From positions 1-64,000 of the forward strand of contig JACRNY010000007.1 in assembly GCA_016214695.1 (NCBI GenBank): a DNA stretch of 64,000 bases, given 5' to 3'. The notes under the pieces are model-generated. The model did no database searches. It saw only the letters and a program-made list of their open reading frames with translations, and was not told where the DNA came from. Source of the stretch: Nitrosomonadales bacterium (GTDB lineage Bacteria; Pseudomonadota; Gammaproteobacteria; Burkholderiales; Gallionellaceae). This document shows, in pieces, positions 19,870 through 49,029 of this stretch; position 1 is the stretch's first letter; every line of letters begins with the position of its first letter. The position numbers were made by a program, and so were the translations under genes.

Positions 19870-19885
19870 TGTCGTAAACCCTACA
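19870..19885 (+). promoter_or_regulatory. NifA upstream activator site of the iscA-nifU operon
   Basis: TGT, ten bases, ACA (TGT CGTAAACCCT ACA) is an exact match to the NifA-binding consensus. It lies 94 bases upstream of a consensus sigma-54 promoter, the normal distance for NifA acting through DNA looping. Confidence 0.75.
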
Positions 19886-19979: not shown

Positions 19980-19995
19980 TGGCACACAGCTTGCA
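19980..19995 (+). promoter_or_regulatory. Sigma-54 promoter of the iscA-nifUSV operon
   Basis: TGGCAC ACAGC TTGCA matches the -24/-12 consensus exactly, with GG and GC ten bases apart. Transcription would start near 20006, leaving a leader of about 28 bases that contains the GGAG ribosome binding site of the first gene. Confidence 0.9.
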
Positions 19996-37512: not shown

Positions 37513-37797
37513 TCAAGCCTTGATGATGATGTTCCCGCCGAGTACCTGTGCCTGGCAGGCCAGCCGCTGGTCGCTCGCGGCCATGTTTTCCTGCAGCACC
37601 TTGTCTTCCAGCACCGAGCGTTCGCTCATGTGTTGCATGCCGGAAACCACCTTTACCGCGCAGGTACAACACTCGCCCTCGCGGCAACCGTAGGTGATGC
37701 CGGCGCCGATCTTTTCGGAGATCTCGATCAGGCGCGTGCCCGCGGGAACGCTGACGGTGACGCCGAGTTTTTCGAAAGTGACGTTGGCCTTAGGCAT
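37513..37797 (-). CDS. [2Fe-2S] ferredoxin
   Basis: Protein of 94 residues. The cluster ligands lie in YGCREGECCTCAVKV, with a supernumerary cysteine directly after the second ligand, and in DQRLACQAQV. It is compact and acidic like other nif-linked [2Fe-2S] ferredoxins. Two different [2Fe-2S] ferredoxins and one [4Fe-4S] ferredoxin in one operon suggest different electron partners. Confidence 0.9.
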   Translation of the reverse strand: MPKANVTFEKLGVTVSVPAGTRLIEISEKIGAGITYGCREGECCTCAVKVVSGMQHMSERSVLEDKVLQENMAASDQRLACQAQVLGGNIIIKA

Positions 37798-37812
37798 GGC
37801 TGGAATCCAGAG

Positions 37813-38298
37813 TTAAAAAAGGTTGTTCTCGATTGTCTCCTCTCCCTTTGGGAGAGGATTGAGGTGAGGGGATTTCGGGGTCGGGCAGGGCTTGGCGTGA
37901 TGCCCATTCGGGCAAGCCTCGATATCGCCTGCCGGTTTTGCGTTGTTGAGTCCTATCCATCCGTTCACGGCCTCGGCGTCGAAGCCAACGCGCAACTCGC
38001 CATCCACATCCATCAGCGGACGACGGATCAGCAGCGGGTCGATCAGCATCATGCTCAGCGCCTCTTCCTCGCCACAGTCAGCGGGAATCACTTCGCCCGA
38101 CTTCACGCGCGGTGCGGCCGGATTGAACCATTGGCCGACAGGCAGTTCGCCGAAGAAGGGGCGCAGGCGATCGGCGGTCCACTTCTCGGTGAGCAGGTTC
38201 TTCGCCAGAACGGTATGCCCCGACGCGGCCAGCCACACCTTCTGTTTGGTGTTGTTGCCGCAGCCGGGCTTCTCGTAAAAGACGACGGTGGCCATCAT
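37813..38298 (-). CDS. nifO: NifO, ArsC-like nitrogenase-associated protein
   Basis: Protein of 161 residues of the arsenate-reductase-like thioredoxin fold family. VVFYEKPGCGNNTKQKVWL holds the N-terminal cysteine, followed by FFGELPVGQWFNPAAP and PLLIRRPLMDV, which are typical ArsC-fold elements. In Azotobacter nifO lies near nifB and nifQ and affects molybdenum use. The last about 20 residues (from PHLNPLPKGEET) are encoded by a family C repeat. The start ATGATG overlaps the fdxN stop. Confidence 0.82.
   Translation of the reverse strand: MMATVVFYEKPGCGNNTKQKVWLAASGHTVLAKNLLTEKWTADRLRPFFGELPVGQWFNPAAPRVKSGEVIPADCGEEEALSMMLIDPLLIRRPLMDVDGELRVGFDAEAVNGWIGLNNAKPAGDIEACPNGHHAKPCPTPKSPHLNPLPKGEETIENNLF
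37840..37873. repeat. Palindromic repeat, family C copy 4 (inside the nifO 3' end)
   Basis: TCTCCCTTTGGGAGAGGATT with GAGGTGAGGGGATT is a family C arm with a degenerate hairpin loop. It is read in frame as the C-terminus of NifO. Confidence 0.8.
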
Positions 38299-38717: not shown

Positions 38718-40307
38718 TTAAGCCACCTTCTGTTGTTCGTCTGCCTTCGCTTCCAGCTTGCCCGCAACCCGCATCTCTTCGTACACCTTGAGCACGGCGT
38801 CCTCGATCGGCTCCATCGCGTGTTCGCCGTTGGGCTGGATGCCCGCCGCTTCCAGCGGACCCCAGGGTTCGTAGCCGACCTTGCTGCACAGCACGGCTTC
38901 GCAACCGGCCAGTACTTTCAGCGTCTTGTCCAGCACGCTCTCGCCGTCGCCGCAGCTGATGTCGCCTTCGCAGTAGGGCGTGGTCTTGCGGTGGCCGATG
39001 AAGCGCACACCATCGGATGATGCTTCGTAGATCAGGAACTCGCCGGCATGGCCGAAGTGTTCGTTGATCACGCCGCCGCCCTTGGTGGCGACCGCCATCA
39101 GTACCGGGCGTGTCGTTTCCTTCTTCTGCAGTCCCTGGATGCTGACCAGTTGCACCTTGGATTCCTTGGCGAGGCGTTTGCTCTCCAATTCTTCGTTGAT
39201 GGCGGCATGCACTTCGGCACGCATCTTCATCGCTTCGGGATAGTTGATCTCCATCTGCTCGACCTTGTCCATGGTGAACTCGGAGCCTCTATCCTCGCCC
39301 AGCAGACCGACCGCATCGGCGCGGCACTGGCGGCAATGGCGCATCATGTTCATGTCGCCCTCACACGCGTCCTGAAGCGCTTGCAATTCCTCGTTGGTCG
39401 GGCCGCGCTGGCCGGTGAGGCCGTAGAAGGTGCCGTGCTCGGCTTCCGAGATCAGCGGCATCACGTTGTGCAGGAATGCGCCTTTGGCCTTCACGATCTT
39501 CGACACTTCTTCCAGATGCTTGTCGTTCACGCCGGGGATCATCACCGAGTTCACTTTCACCAGGATGCCCTTGGCGACCAGCATCTCCAGCCCCTTCTGT
39601 TGTTGCGCGATGAGGATCTCGGCCGCTTCGCGACCCTTGATGCGCTTGTTCTTCCAGAAGATCCACGGATAGATCTGCGCGCCCACGTCGGGATCGACGC
39701 AGTTGATGGTGATGGTCACATGGTCGATGTTGTACTGCGACAGTTGCTCCACCTGCTCGGGCAGCGACAGACCGTTGGTCGACACGCACAGCTTGATGTC
39801 CGGGGCCTGCTCGGACAGCATGCGGAACGTCTCGAAGGTGCGCTCCGGATTGGCCAAGGGATCACCGGGACCGGCGATGCCCAGCACCGTCATCTGCGGG
39901 ATGGTGGCCGCGACGGCCAATACTTTTTTCACCGCCTGCACCGGATGGTGTAACTCGGACACCACGCCGGGGCGCGACTCGTTGGCGCAGTCGTATTTGC
40001 GGTTGCAGTAATTACATTGAATATTGCAGGCCGGAGCCACCGCTACATGCATACGTGCAAAGTAATGGTGTGCTTCTTCCGAATAGCAGGGGTGGTTGAA
40101 CACCTTCTGGCGGATATGCTCAGGCAGGTGGTTCATCTGGTCGTCGGTCGAACCGCACGATCCGGCGGAACAGCCGCTGGATTTGGAAGTTGCCCGCAGC
40201 GCTTCGTTCGCTCCCTCGCCCGCAAGCGGGAGAGGGTTGGGGAGAGGGGAGCAGGCTTGCCTGCTGGGCGCTTCACTTGCTGCGTTATTCAAGACTGGTA
40301 GTTGCAC
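38718..40307 (-). CDS. nifB: NifB, FeMo-cofactor radical SAM enzyme
   Basis: Protein of 529 residues that fuses two [4Fe-4S] clusters with a carbide to make NifB-co. HPCYSEEAHHYFARMHVAV precedes the radical SAM motif CNIQCNYC, and a NifX-like domain covers the last about 120 residues (MAVATKGGGVINEHFGHAGE). Residues about 20-32 ([14 protein letters not shown]) come from a family C repeat; NifB proteins normally pass from the short start straight to the GCSAGSCGS region. The start is GTG at 40307 with GGAGGA upstream, behind a sigma-54 promoter. Confidence 0.95.
   Translation of the reverse strand: MQLPVLNNAASEAPSRQACSPLPNPLPLAGEGANEALRATSKSSGCSAGSCGSTDDQMNHLPEHIRQKVFNHPCYSEEAHHYFARMHVAVAPACNIQCNYCNRKYDCANESRPGVVSELHHPVQAVKKVLAVAATIPQMTVLGIAGPGDPLANPERTFETFRMLSEQAPDIKLCVSTNGLSLPEQVEQLSQYNIDHVTITINCVDPDVGAQIYPWIFWKNKRIKGREAAEILIAQQQKGLEMLVAKGILVKVNSVMIPGVNDKHLEEVSKIVKAKGAFLHNVMPLISEAEHGTFYGLTGQRGPTNEELQALQDACEGDMNMMRHCRQCRADAVGLLGEDRGSEFTMDKVEQMEINYPEAMKMRAEVHAAINEELESKRLAKESKVQLVSIQGLQKKETTRPVLMAVATKGGGVINEHFGHAGEFLIYEASSDGVRFIGHRKTTPYCEGDISCGDGESVLDKTLKVLAGCEAVLCSKVGYEPWGPLEAAGIQPNGEHAMEPIEDAVLKVYEEMRVAGKLEAKADEQQKVA
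40211..40249. repeat. Palindromic repeat, family C copy 5 (inside nifB)
   Basis: CTCCCTCGCCCGCAAGCGGG with AGAGGGTTGGGGAGAGGGG is a family C arm read in frame as part of the NifB N-terminus. Confidence 0.88.
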
Positions 40308-40356: not shown

Positions 40357-40450
40357 GCTTCTGAATCTCGCTTAACTCATTGTTTTATATTGATCGTATG
40401 TGCGCGGCGTGCACCGCTGTTGCAAATGGCACATGACAGGCGCCCGGGCT

Positions 40451-40466
40451 TGTGGCGAAGGTGACA
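40451..40466. promoter_or_regulatory. NifA upstream activator site (nifB / Fe-S oxidoreductase)
   Basis: TGT GGCGAAGGTG ACA matches the TGT-N10-ACA consensus exactly. It is 94 bases from the nifB promoter, the same gap as at the iscA-nifU operon, and 195 bases from the rightward promoter. Confidence 0.75.
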
Positions 40467-40532
40467 AATTCACCGCGCGGGGTGTTTCGGGAGGGGGATG
40501 TTGGGCGATTCAGCCGATCGCTGGCACATCTT

Positions 40533-40624
40533 CCGTTCGTGGTGAGCTTGTCGAACCATGAGCGGAGGATGCAATAAATCAATGCATTGATACTCTGGCC
40601 CTTCGACAGGCTCAGGGCGAACGG
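40533..40624. repeat. Palindromic repeat, family E copy 1
   Basis: CCGTTCGTGGTGAGCTTGTC with GAACCATGA is mirrored by CCTTCGACAGGCTCAGGGCG with AACGG, bracketing about 35 bases. A related copy is at 45403-45490. It lies between the NifA site and the rightward sigma-54 promoter. Confidence 0.88.
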
Positions 40625-40661
40625 ATTTGCTCATGACTTTCTTTGCTTCCCGATTCAGTCT

Positions 40662-40677
40662 TGGCACTGTAATTGCC
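40662..40677 (+). promoter_or_regulatory. Sigma-54 promoter of the Fe-S oxidoreductase gene
   Basis: TGGCACT GTAA TTGCC has the consensus TGGCAC and TTGC boxes with GG-N10-GC spacing. The predicted transcription start (about 40688) is only about three bases before the ATG at 40691, which would make the message almost leaderless. Confidence 0.75.
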
Positions 40678-40690
40678 TCTCCGATCCGAT

Positions 40691-42133
40691 ATGAAAAAAC
40701 ATCATCTCGACTGGTCTTCTTATGAAACGGCGGGGCAGGGCGACGCCTATGCGGGCATCCCCGCCACGGGCGGCGACTTCGCCAAAGCGGTGGCGGTCTG
40801 CATCGGCGACAAGCAATGCCAACGCAAACCCAAAGGCGTGATGTGCCCCAGCTTCCGCGCCACCGACGATCCGGCGCATTCACCGGGCGGGCGCGTGAAG
40901 GTGCTCAAGGCCGCCTTGAATGGCGAACTCGGCGACGACCCCTTCGCCGGACAAGCATTGGCCGATGCCATGGAACTCTGCGTCGGCTGCAAAGGCTGCA
41001 AGCGCGAATGCGCCAACCAGGTCGACATGGCCGCCATCAAGATCGAATATCAGGCGCAGCGCAATGAACGCATTGGCATATCGCGGCGCGACCGGCTGGT
41101 GGCGGCGATGCCGCGATGGTTGCGACATCGCCGTATCTTGCGCGGCCTGATCCGCCTGCGTAACCGCATGCCGTGGCTGGCGCAGCTGGGCGAAAGATTC
41201 TTCGGCATCTCCGCCCAACGACAATTACCGGAACCCGTTACTGCTCCGTTCGTGCTGCACCCGCAAGGGGTAGGCCGTGGCTGTAAGGGGCTGAAGCCCC
41301 AACAGCACACGCACAGTAGCGTAGCGTATCGAAGCATGAATGGAGTAGACACCTCGAATCAGTGCAGCGAAAAAGACGTCATCCTCTTCGTCGACACCTT
41401 CGCCCTGCACTTTGAACCCGAGATCGCCGCCGCCGCGCAGCAGGTGCTGACTGCCGCAGGCTACAACGTCATCACCCTGCAAGCGCAGCCGGATGACGAA
41501 CCCGACCGCGCTCTATGTTGCGGCCGCACCTATCTTTCATTGGGGCAGGTCGAGGAGGCACGCCACGAAGCGCGCCGTCTGCATTCCGCCTTGCGCCCGG
41601 CATTGGCGGCGGGCATTCCCGTCGTCGGATTGGAACCCTCGTGTATCCTGTCCCTGCGAGACGATCATCTGAAGCTCGGCCTGGGCGAAGATGCGGTGGC
41701 ATTATCAAAACAGGTCTACCTGCTGGAAGAGTTCATCGCGCGCGAACACGACCGCAAACGCTTCACCCTGGAATTCAAACCGCTGCCGCGCGGCAGGACG
41801 CTGGTGCACGGGCACTGCCACCAGAAAGCCGTCGGTGCGATGAAGTCGCTGCGCAAAGTGCTGCGCCTGATCCCGGAGTTCGAGTTCGAATTCATCGAAG
41901 CCAGCTGCTGCGGCATGGCGGGCAGTTTCGGGCTGGAAGCGGAACACGCCGACATCTCCATGCAGATGGCCGAGATCGACCTGCTGCCCGCATTGCGCGC
42001 CGCACCCGATGCCGCCATCCTCGCCAACGGCTTCTCCTGCCGTCACCAGATACGCGAAGGCGCGGATCGCCAGCCGGTGCATGTGGCCTTGCTGCTGCGC
42101 GACGCGCTTATCACGGGAGAGCAAACATGCTGA
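40691..42133 (+). CDS. Fe-S oxidoreductase (GlpC/CCG-domain type) in the nif regulon
   Basis: Protein of 480 residues. The first part has two [4Fe-4S] motifs (CIGDKQCQRKPKGVMCP and CVGCKGCKRECANQVDM); the second has two CCG-type cysteine domains (ALCCGRTYLS and SCCGMAGSFG, with GHCHQKA). This matches the electron-transfer half of FAD-linked dehydrogenases and GlpC/HdrD-type proteins; the flavin half is missing. About residues 190-225 appear to come from an inserted hairpin sequence. No ribosome binding site precedes the ATG. Sigma-54 control and position next to nifB suggest a nitrogen-fixation role; partner unknown. Confidence 0.8.
   Translation: MKKHHLDWSSYETAGQGDAYAGIPATGGDFAKAVAVCIGDKQCQRKPKGVMCPSFRATDDPAHSPGGRVKVLKAALNGELGDDPFAGQALADAMELCVGCKGCKRECANQVDMAAIKIEYQAQRNERIGISRRDRLVAAMPRWLRHRRILRGLIRLRNRMPWLAQLGERFFGISAQRQLPEPVTAPFVLHPQGVGRGCKGLKPQQHTHSSVAYRSMNGVDTSNQCSEKDVILFVDTFALHFEPEIAAAAQQVLTAAGYNVITLQAQPDDEPDRALCCGRTYLSLGQVEEARHEARRLHSALRPALAAGIPVVGLEPSCILSLRDDHLKLGLGEDAVALSKQVYLLEEFIAREHDRKRFTLEFKPLPRGRTLVHGHCHQKAVGAMKSLRKVLRLIPEFEFEFIEASCCGMAGSFGLEAEHADISMQMAEIDLLPALRAAPDAAILANGFSCRHQIREGADRQPVHVALLLRDALITGEQTC
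41280..41306. repeat. Intragenic hairpin in the Fe-S oxidoreductase gene
   Basis: GCTGTAAGGGGCT and AGCCCCAACAGC form a stem of 11 base pairs with small bulges around a two-base loop. It lies in the linker between the ferredoxin-like and CCG domains and is read in frame (GCKGLKPQQ). The encoded segment has no resemblance to the neighbouring domains. Confidence 0.6.
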
Positions 42134-42477
42134 GCGGCGCCATGCTGGGACTGATGGAACGCATCGCCCTCGACATCATGGTGTTGACCGACGAGATCAG
42201 CGAGGAGGATTTCTTCAGCAGCCGCCTGACCCGGAACCAGACCTTGCAGTTGCTGGCCAGTCTCGCGCGCACCGCTGCCGACCTGCCCGCCGCCACGCGC
42301 GAACGCATGCACGAGATCGACTGGGCGGCCTGGGCCGCGTTGCAGGTCGCCCTCGCCAGACCCGCTCAGCATCCCCTGCAGATCTGGATCGCCATCAAGG
42401 AACTCACCCCGCTGACGGTGCAGCGACTGCACGACTACAAGCGCAAGCAGCCGCAATTGTTTTCGATGGTGTTGTAA
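42127..42477 (+). CDS. HepT-like (DUF86) small protein
   Basis: Protein of 116 residues, all helical. MERIALDIMVLTDEISEEDF with FSSRLTRNQTLQLLASLART resembles the DUF86/HepT fold. The RxxxxH motif of active HepT toxins is not present (LQVALARPAQHPLQIWIAI occupies that region), and no MntA-type nucleotidyltransferase gene is next to it. It overlaps the Fe-S oxidoreductase gene by seven bases, so it should be made together with it under sigma-54 control. A structural or partner role is inferred. Confidence 0.6.
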   Translation: MLSGAMLGLMERIALDIMVLTDEISEEDFFSSRLTRNQTLQLLASLARTAADLPAATRERMHEIDWAAWAALQVALARPAQHPLQIWIAIKELTPLTVQRLHDYKRKQPQLFSMVL

Positions 42478-49013: not shown

Positions 49014-49029
49014 TGTCGCGTTTGCTACA
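49014..49029 (+). promoter_or_regulatory. NifA upstream activator site of the rnf operon
   Basis: TGT CGCGTTTGCT ACA matches TGT-N10-ACA exactly and lies 106 bases before the rnfA sigma-54 promoter. Confidence 0.7.

Follow-up and report, generated by a model that had tools for sequence, protein, structure and literature searches.

A stand-alone CCG-domain iron-sulfur protein and a HepT-fold companion behind a predicted NifA/sigma-54 promoter in the nif region of a Gallionellaceae bacterium

Divergent from nifB in the nitrogen fixation region of a Gallionellaceae genome lie two overlapping genes, here called P0001 and P0002, which encode an iron-sulfur protein of 480 aa and a small protein of 116 aa and raise the question of what such a pair might contribute to a diazotroph. 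No description of a P0001-type gene was found in the open literature, including papers on Azoarcus BH72, Pseudomonas stutzeri A1501 and Azotobacter, and the record for Methylococcus sp. EFPC2 names its copy a '4Fe-4S dicluster domain-containing protein' and nothing more. The reading favoured here, to which we give about an even chance, is that the two genes encode an auxiliary redox pair of the nif regulon, with P0001 acting as a flavoprotein-coupled Fe-S wire and P0002 as its binding subunit. Electron delivery to nitrogenase and protection of the enzyme from O2 are limiting and incompletely known, and both are targets in the transfer of nif genes to new hosts; a conserved, sigma-54-controlled and diazotroph-restricted Fe-S protein with a homologue in the model organism Azotobacter vinelandii would be a candidate missing component that is open to experiment.

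The locus and its promoter

The window (the whole 64-kb stretch of DNA analysed) covers part of a full nif region, which on the contig runs in the order nifUSV-cysE-nifZM, draG-nifQ-ferredoxins-nifO-fdxN-nifB, the P0001-P0002 pair, nifA-nifL and rnf, with draT, nifHDKT and nifENX on the same contig past rnf, beyond the window. Gene calls on the contig were made by script, and names were assigned by comparison and in part with Pfam. The features of the locus are as follows.

38718..40136, minus strand: nifB, the divergent neighbour of P0001
40342..40356, minus strand: nifB-side sigma-54-like promoter, GGGCACGCTGTTTGC, conserved in relatives
40418..40433, plus strand: distal NifA-type upstream site, TGT-N10-ACA, 33 bp from the proximal site, spacing conserved
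40451..40466, plus strand: proximal NifA-type upstream site, TGT-N10-ACA
40498..40645 (approximate), no strand: REP-like insertion of about 130 bp between the pair of upstream sites and the promoter
40662..40676, plus strand: sigma-54 promoter of P0001, TGGCACTGTAATTGC, exact match to TGGCAC-N5-TTGC
40691..42133, plus strand: P0001, stand-alone Fe-S protein of 480 aa
41246..41316, plus strand: dispersed repeat, in frame, in the P0001 linker between the Fer4 and CCG domains
42127..42477, plus strand: P0002, HEPN/HepT-fold small protein of 116 aa without an RX4-6H motif

A first-pass annotation of this DNA had described a consensus sigma-54 promoter ahead of a 480 aa gene that overlaps a 116 aa gene and diverges from nifB, and all of this was confirmed, the promoter as an exact match and the overlap as 7 nt at the end of the P0001 reading frame. 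Exact copies of TGGCAC-N5-TTGC occur three times in the window, at 19980, 40662 and 49136, ahead of iscA-nifUSV, P0001-P0002 and rnfABCDGEH, respectively, and each has TGT-N10-ACA upstream (at 19870, at 40418 and 40451, and at 49014). In approximately 18 genomes of the same family, a sigma-54 site lies 27-30 nt before the ATG of the P0001-type gene, usually with two upstream sites 33 bp apart, and this retention of promoter and upstream sites argues that the P0001 promoter did not arise by chance. A few genomes, G014 among them, have the pair downstream of a coding sequence instead, and there the divergent operon is headed by a NafY/NifX-like gene. A sigma-54-like site was present within 100 bp upstream of 12 of 21 stand-alone genes, compared with none of 50 genes for the fused relatives described below and 17 of 864 other genes (2%), and the stand-alone copies with such a site include those of Azoarcus indigens and Methylobacter, which have no recognised nif gene within 10 kb. 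The combination of a -24/-12 promoter with a NifA-type site, conserved in relatives, places P0001 in the nif regulon by promoter, and the gene is predicted to be transcribed together with P0002 from this NifA/sigma-54 promoter.

If the -12 element is set at the C of GC, +1 of the P0001 promoter is predicted at 40688, 3 nt before the ATG. Start sites predicted in this way lie 1-4 nt ahead of the ATG, which would leave the P0001 mRNA nearly leaderless; a conserved leaderless sigma-54 mRNA at 40662-40693 is possible. Leaders of 28 and 16 nt are predicted for the two remaining exact promoters, and the short predicted leader is conserved across the family and fits Zoogloea and Rhodocyclus too.

The REP-like insertion between the upstream sites and the promoter is found in this genome and is missing from the nearest relatives. 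The dispersed repeat in the P0001 linker has five other strong copies in the genome and leaves the reading frame unbroken, and the part of the protein that it encodes (residues 193-219) is a low-confidence loop in the AlphaFold2 model. P0002 has P0001 on one side and an AAA/DUF4143 gene on the other; the latter was set aside as a part of the system, as none of the relatives examined was seen to have it next to the pair. Neither P0001 nor P0002 was matched by PADLOC, which searches for anti-phage defence genes.

Family and fold of the two proteins

P0001 consists of an N-terminal LDWSxY segment, a dicluster ferredoxin domain (residues ~36-112) and two CCG domains (residues ~228-475). Two [4Fe-4S] motifs had been proposed in the first-pass annotation; the second is standard (C97/100/103/107), but the first is atypical (C37-x5-C43-x8-C52). 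Both of the proposed CCG domains held, one being recognised by Pfam alongside Fer4_8 and the other being clear from motifs and the model. All 14 cysteines, three of them in one CCG domain and four in the other, are conserved in nearly all homologues; the loss of the three CCG-1 cysteines in the Neiella marina homologue counts against the favoured reading.

The best NCBIfam matches of P0001 are GlpC, YdiJ, LdhH and GlcF, all far under cut-off. GlpC, the Fe-S subunit of anaerobic glycerol-3-phosphate dehydrogenase, is a stand-alone protein with Fer4 and two CCG domains, as is P0001, but with 151 bits against a cut-off of 278, and for GlcF 47.6 bits against 333, P0001 falls outside both families. 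No GlpAB or GlcDE partner flavoprotein is encoded in the nif region of the contig, and none was recognised beside the homologues examined. Outside the stand-alone family, the closest relatives are proteins of ~1000 aa with FAD_binding_4, FAD-oxidase_C, Fer4 and CCG domains. The C-terminal half of these fused YdiJ-type D-2-hydroxyglutarate/D-lactate dehydrogenases matches nearly all of P0001 at ~42-50% identity, with the same domain order and, in the sequences sampled, all 14 cysteines in common. However, P0001 lacks both FAD domains (each present in the fused homologue L136), and it differs further from the YdiJ type in its own LDWSxY segment, its sigma-54 sites, its co-occurrence with nifH and its position in a separate clade. 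In a tree of 39 stand-alone and 20 fused proteins, the two groups are split by a 100/100 branch, and the stand-alone clade divides into a nifB/Azotobacter type and a type often found beside a GST gene near nifH. P0001 is a member of a separate stand-alone family that corresponds to the C-terminal Fe-S half of the YdiJ type without the FAD half, and it is probably either a descendant or a sister of that half of the FAD/Fe-S dehydrogenases.

The AlphaFold2 model of P0001 (mean pLDDT 89.7) matches LutA with a Z score of 25.1, Mycobacterium smegmatis EtfD with 22.1 over 373 residues, i.e. nearly the whole length of P0001, and heterodisulfide reductase HdrB with ~18. The two CCG domains in an HdrB-like arrangement, at Z 18-25, place the protein in the CCG/HdrB superfamily; by sequence profile, no solved chain was found at E <= 0.001, and just short ferredoxin matches at values up to 0.1. 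HdrB and LutA have the CCG-pair fold in common with P0001, but HdrB carries full five-cysteine sets, compared with the three and four cysteines of the P0001 domains, which may bind noncubane or linear clusters. EtfD, the match along the whole length of P0001, receives electrons from a flavoprotein. The mycobacterial protein carries a linear [3Fe-4S] and a noncubane [4Fe-4S] cluster and is thought to move electrons from the flavoprotein to menaquinone by way of its CCG-bound clusters and two cubanes (PMC13083937). However, EtfD also has five membrane helices, a heme b and a menaquinone site, to none of which P0001 has a counterpart, and several of its CCG ligands appear from the motifs to differ from those of P0001.

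For P0002, the proposed likeness to HepT, the HEPN toxin of MNT-HEPN pairs, is weak by sequence, with PF01934 matching 6 of 19 family members (best E 4.7e-4), but clear by structure. The top 11 structural matches to its model (pLDDT 93.6) are all MNT-partnered HEPN toxins, with Z scores of 8.9-10.8 and rmsd values of 2.5-3.1 over 104-109 residues, so that P0002 has the HEPN/HepT fold. The first-pass annotation was also right that P0002 lacks an RxxxxH motif and a toxin partner: the RX4-6H RNase motif is absent across the P0002 family and no MNT nucleotidyltransferase gene lies beside P0002, whereas a genuine HepT (L204), alignable with the family, carries RNRMAHGYF, including the motif RNRMAH, and adjoins an MNT gene. 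Unlike HepT, the family lacks RX4HXY; it has W66, W87, P95 and Y104 as conserved residues of its own and is found near CCG, nif or hyp genes. A part in a toxin-antitoxin system was rejected on the absence of both the motif and an MNT gene, and a match of P0002 to Rop was under its cut-off and finds no support in the fold.

Distribution and gene neighbourhoods

With nifH presence used as a marker, not a proof, of N2 fixation, the pair is present in 25 of the 90 genomes of its own family, 23 of which have nifH whole or in part and two of which are incomplete assemblies (Fisher p 4e-9; relatedness makes the genomes non-independent, and this and the other p values for nifH are guides). In a class-wide sample drawn evenly, the least biased of the data sets, the stand-alone gene occurred in 6 of 369 genomes, all six among the 31 with nifH, compared with 0 of 13 genomes with fused relatives only (p 2e-7). 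Among named genomes, nifH was found in 19 of 24 with a stand-alone gene and, over its cut-off, in 0 of 26 with fused relatives. Three of the five named exceptions have nif genes in the fetched locus; no nif gene was seen for the last two, which are a Rhodocyclaceae and a Hyphomicrobiaceae MAG. Across these data sets (own family, class sample and named genomes), the stand-alone CCG family goes with nitrogen fixation and is nearly confined to diazotrophs. This is the opposite of occurrence mainly in non-diazotrophs, which the first-pass annotation had named as the outcome that would speak against its proposal of a nif-regulon redox protein, and the association with nifH extends the support for that proposal beyond this genome. 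No stand-alone CCG gene was found in 14 of the 39 nifH-bearing genomes of the family, so N2 fixation does not generally require it.

The stand-alone CCG gene lies near nifB in Gallionellaceae and Zoogloea, and elsewhere at nifENX (Pseudothauera), at nifM (Halothiobacillus), at nifH-draT-GST (the paralogue) or on a nif plasmid (Methylococcus sp. EFPC2), with nifA also among its neighbours. The Azotobacter vinelandii copy, which counts against the favoured reading, is outside the nif cluster and without a good sigma-54 site. Flavoprotein genes recur beside the CCG gene: a flavodoxin gene is directly upstream in two Chromatiaceae, Lamprobacter and Thiohalocapsa, fprA overlaps it in G437, and a gene for an amine-oxidase-type FAD protein adjoins it in Azohydromonas and is one gene away in G135. 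That this flavin neighbour varies by lineage is a further point against the favoured reading. The flavodoxin gene of the present genome is elsewhere on the contig (93744-94286), and no FprA match was found in this genome. Members of its own family that were examined carry fprA in the nifB operon, and the site at 37797-37813 here is without the flavodiiron gene that lies between nifO and a 2Fe-2S ferredoxin gene in relatives examined.

Relatives of P0002 occur in few genomes (3 of the 369 in the class sample) and, in the other families of the order, were found at E < 1e-10 only in genomes with nifH (4 of 7, compared with 0 of 52 without; p 8e-5). The pair has a narrower distribution than the CCG gene: Gallionellaceae and Azoarcus indigens were the only places where a P0002-type gene was seen to adjoin it. 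Two arrangements are found there, one with the P0002-type gene after a nifB-type CCG gene (Gallionellaceae and A. indigens) and one with it before a GST-type CCG gene (A. indigens, with a 3-nt gap and its own sigma-54-like site); the HEPN-CCG pairing arose twice. In Pseudothauera lacus, a P0002 relative lies between hypD and hypE, and the sequence around the relative in G500 reads likewise by eye. P0002-like genes of loci L199 and L211, from two nifH-bearing genomes, are those between these hydrogenase maturation genes. Across nif and hyp clusters, the P0002 family would represent a toxin fold that lost its motif and was recruited among the genes of metal enzymes.

A possible redox role and its alternatives

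As a soluble chain of Fe-S clusters without a fused FAD domain, P0001 would trade electrons with a separate flavoprotein, the route running between the flavin partner, the CCG-bound clusters, the two ferredoxin-type clusters and a nif ferredoxin or flavodoxin, in either direction. The best clue to such a partner is gene order elsewhere, namely the flavodoxin-CCG, flavodiiron-CCG and FAD-amine-oxidase-like-CCG neighbours, which would make FMN proteins, of either flavodoxin or FprA (flavodiiron) type, the likeliest partners. The missing flavin subunit suggested by the first-pass annotation accords with these flavodoxin and flavodiiron neighbours and with the FAD half of the nearest relatives. 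A quinone pool, the other link to the three operon ferredoxins suggested there, finds no direct support, as P0001 has no equivalent of the membrane part by which EtfD reaches menaquinone. P0002, whose HepT fold no longer carries the RNase motif, would be the subunit that binds or docks P0001; its fold, the motif loss and the repeated pairing with CCG genes back the earlier view of a non-toxin binding module. Extended to proteobacterial diazotrophs at large, the proposal would be that a NifA-controlled HdrB/EtfD-like Fe-S protein couples flavodoxin or flavodiiron proteins to the electron supply of nitrogenase and is docked by a dead HepT in one lineage, a generalisation that we put forward tentatively and hold at somewhat less than an even chance.

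The gene neighbours are also compatible with a role in O2 or redox protection, in which P0001 would feed FprA or another oxidase near nitrogenase, or repair oxidised thiols or clusters, without donating electrons to nitrogenase. The fprA genes of relatives, in the operon divergent from the pair or overlapping the CCG gene, point in this direction, as do GST and protoglobin neighbours and the HdrB-like fold, but the pair is present here in a genome without an FprA match and the flavodoxin-CCG neighbours suggest low-potential transfer instead, and we regard this explanation as less likely than the favoured one. A split 2-hydroxyacid dehydrogenase, with P0001 as the Fe-S subunit for D-lactate or D-2-hydroxyglutarate and an FAD subunit encoded elsewhere, would feed carbon-derived electrons or clear a by-product during N2 fixation. 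The fused architecture of the nearest relatives and an unlinked GlcD-like protein of 475 aa in the genome fit this idea; however, a GlcD-type gene was recognised beside none of the stand-alone CCG genes examined and the fused relatives have no link to nif, making it improbable.

Assistance in cofactor assembly, with P0001 supplying, for example, sulfur, iron or electrons to NifB, would accord with the divergence from nifB in Gallionellaceae and Zoogloea and with the NafY/NifX-like gene heading the G014 operon. The proximity to nifB is, however, confined to some lineages, the gene otherwise being at nifH, nifENX or nifM or outside the cluster, and this too has a low probability. That the pair is simply carried on nif islands with no part in N2 fixation seems very improbable: presence among diazotrophs is patchy, as a hitchhiker's would be, but the sigma-54-like sites are kept outside nif clusters too, the gene occupies several distinct nif locations and its cysteines are kept across classes.

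Other genes also recur in these neighbourhoods. A GST gene (L102:8276-8890) and a gene for a 565-aa AAA+ protein (L132:8280-9974) are found repeatedly next to homologues of the CCG gene where a genome has nif genes, and a SIR2-like protein encoded beyond the window (contig 68083-68943; L095:8086-8943) is another repeated member of nif clusters, in the vicinity of draT and nifH.
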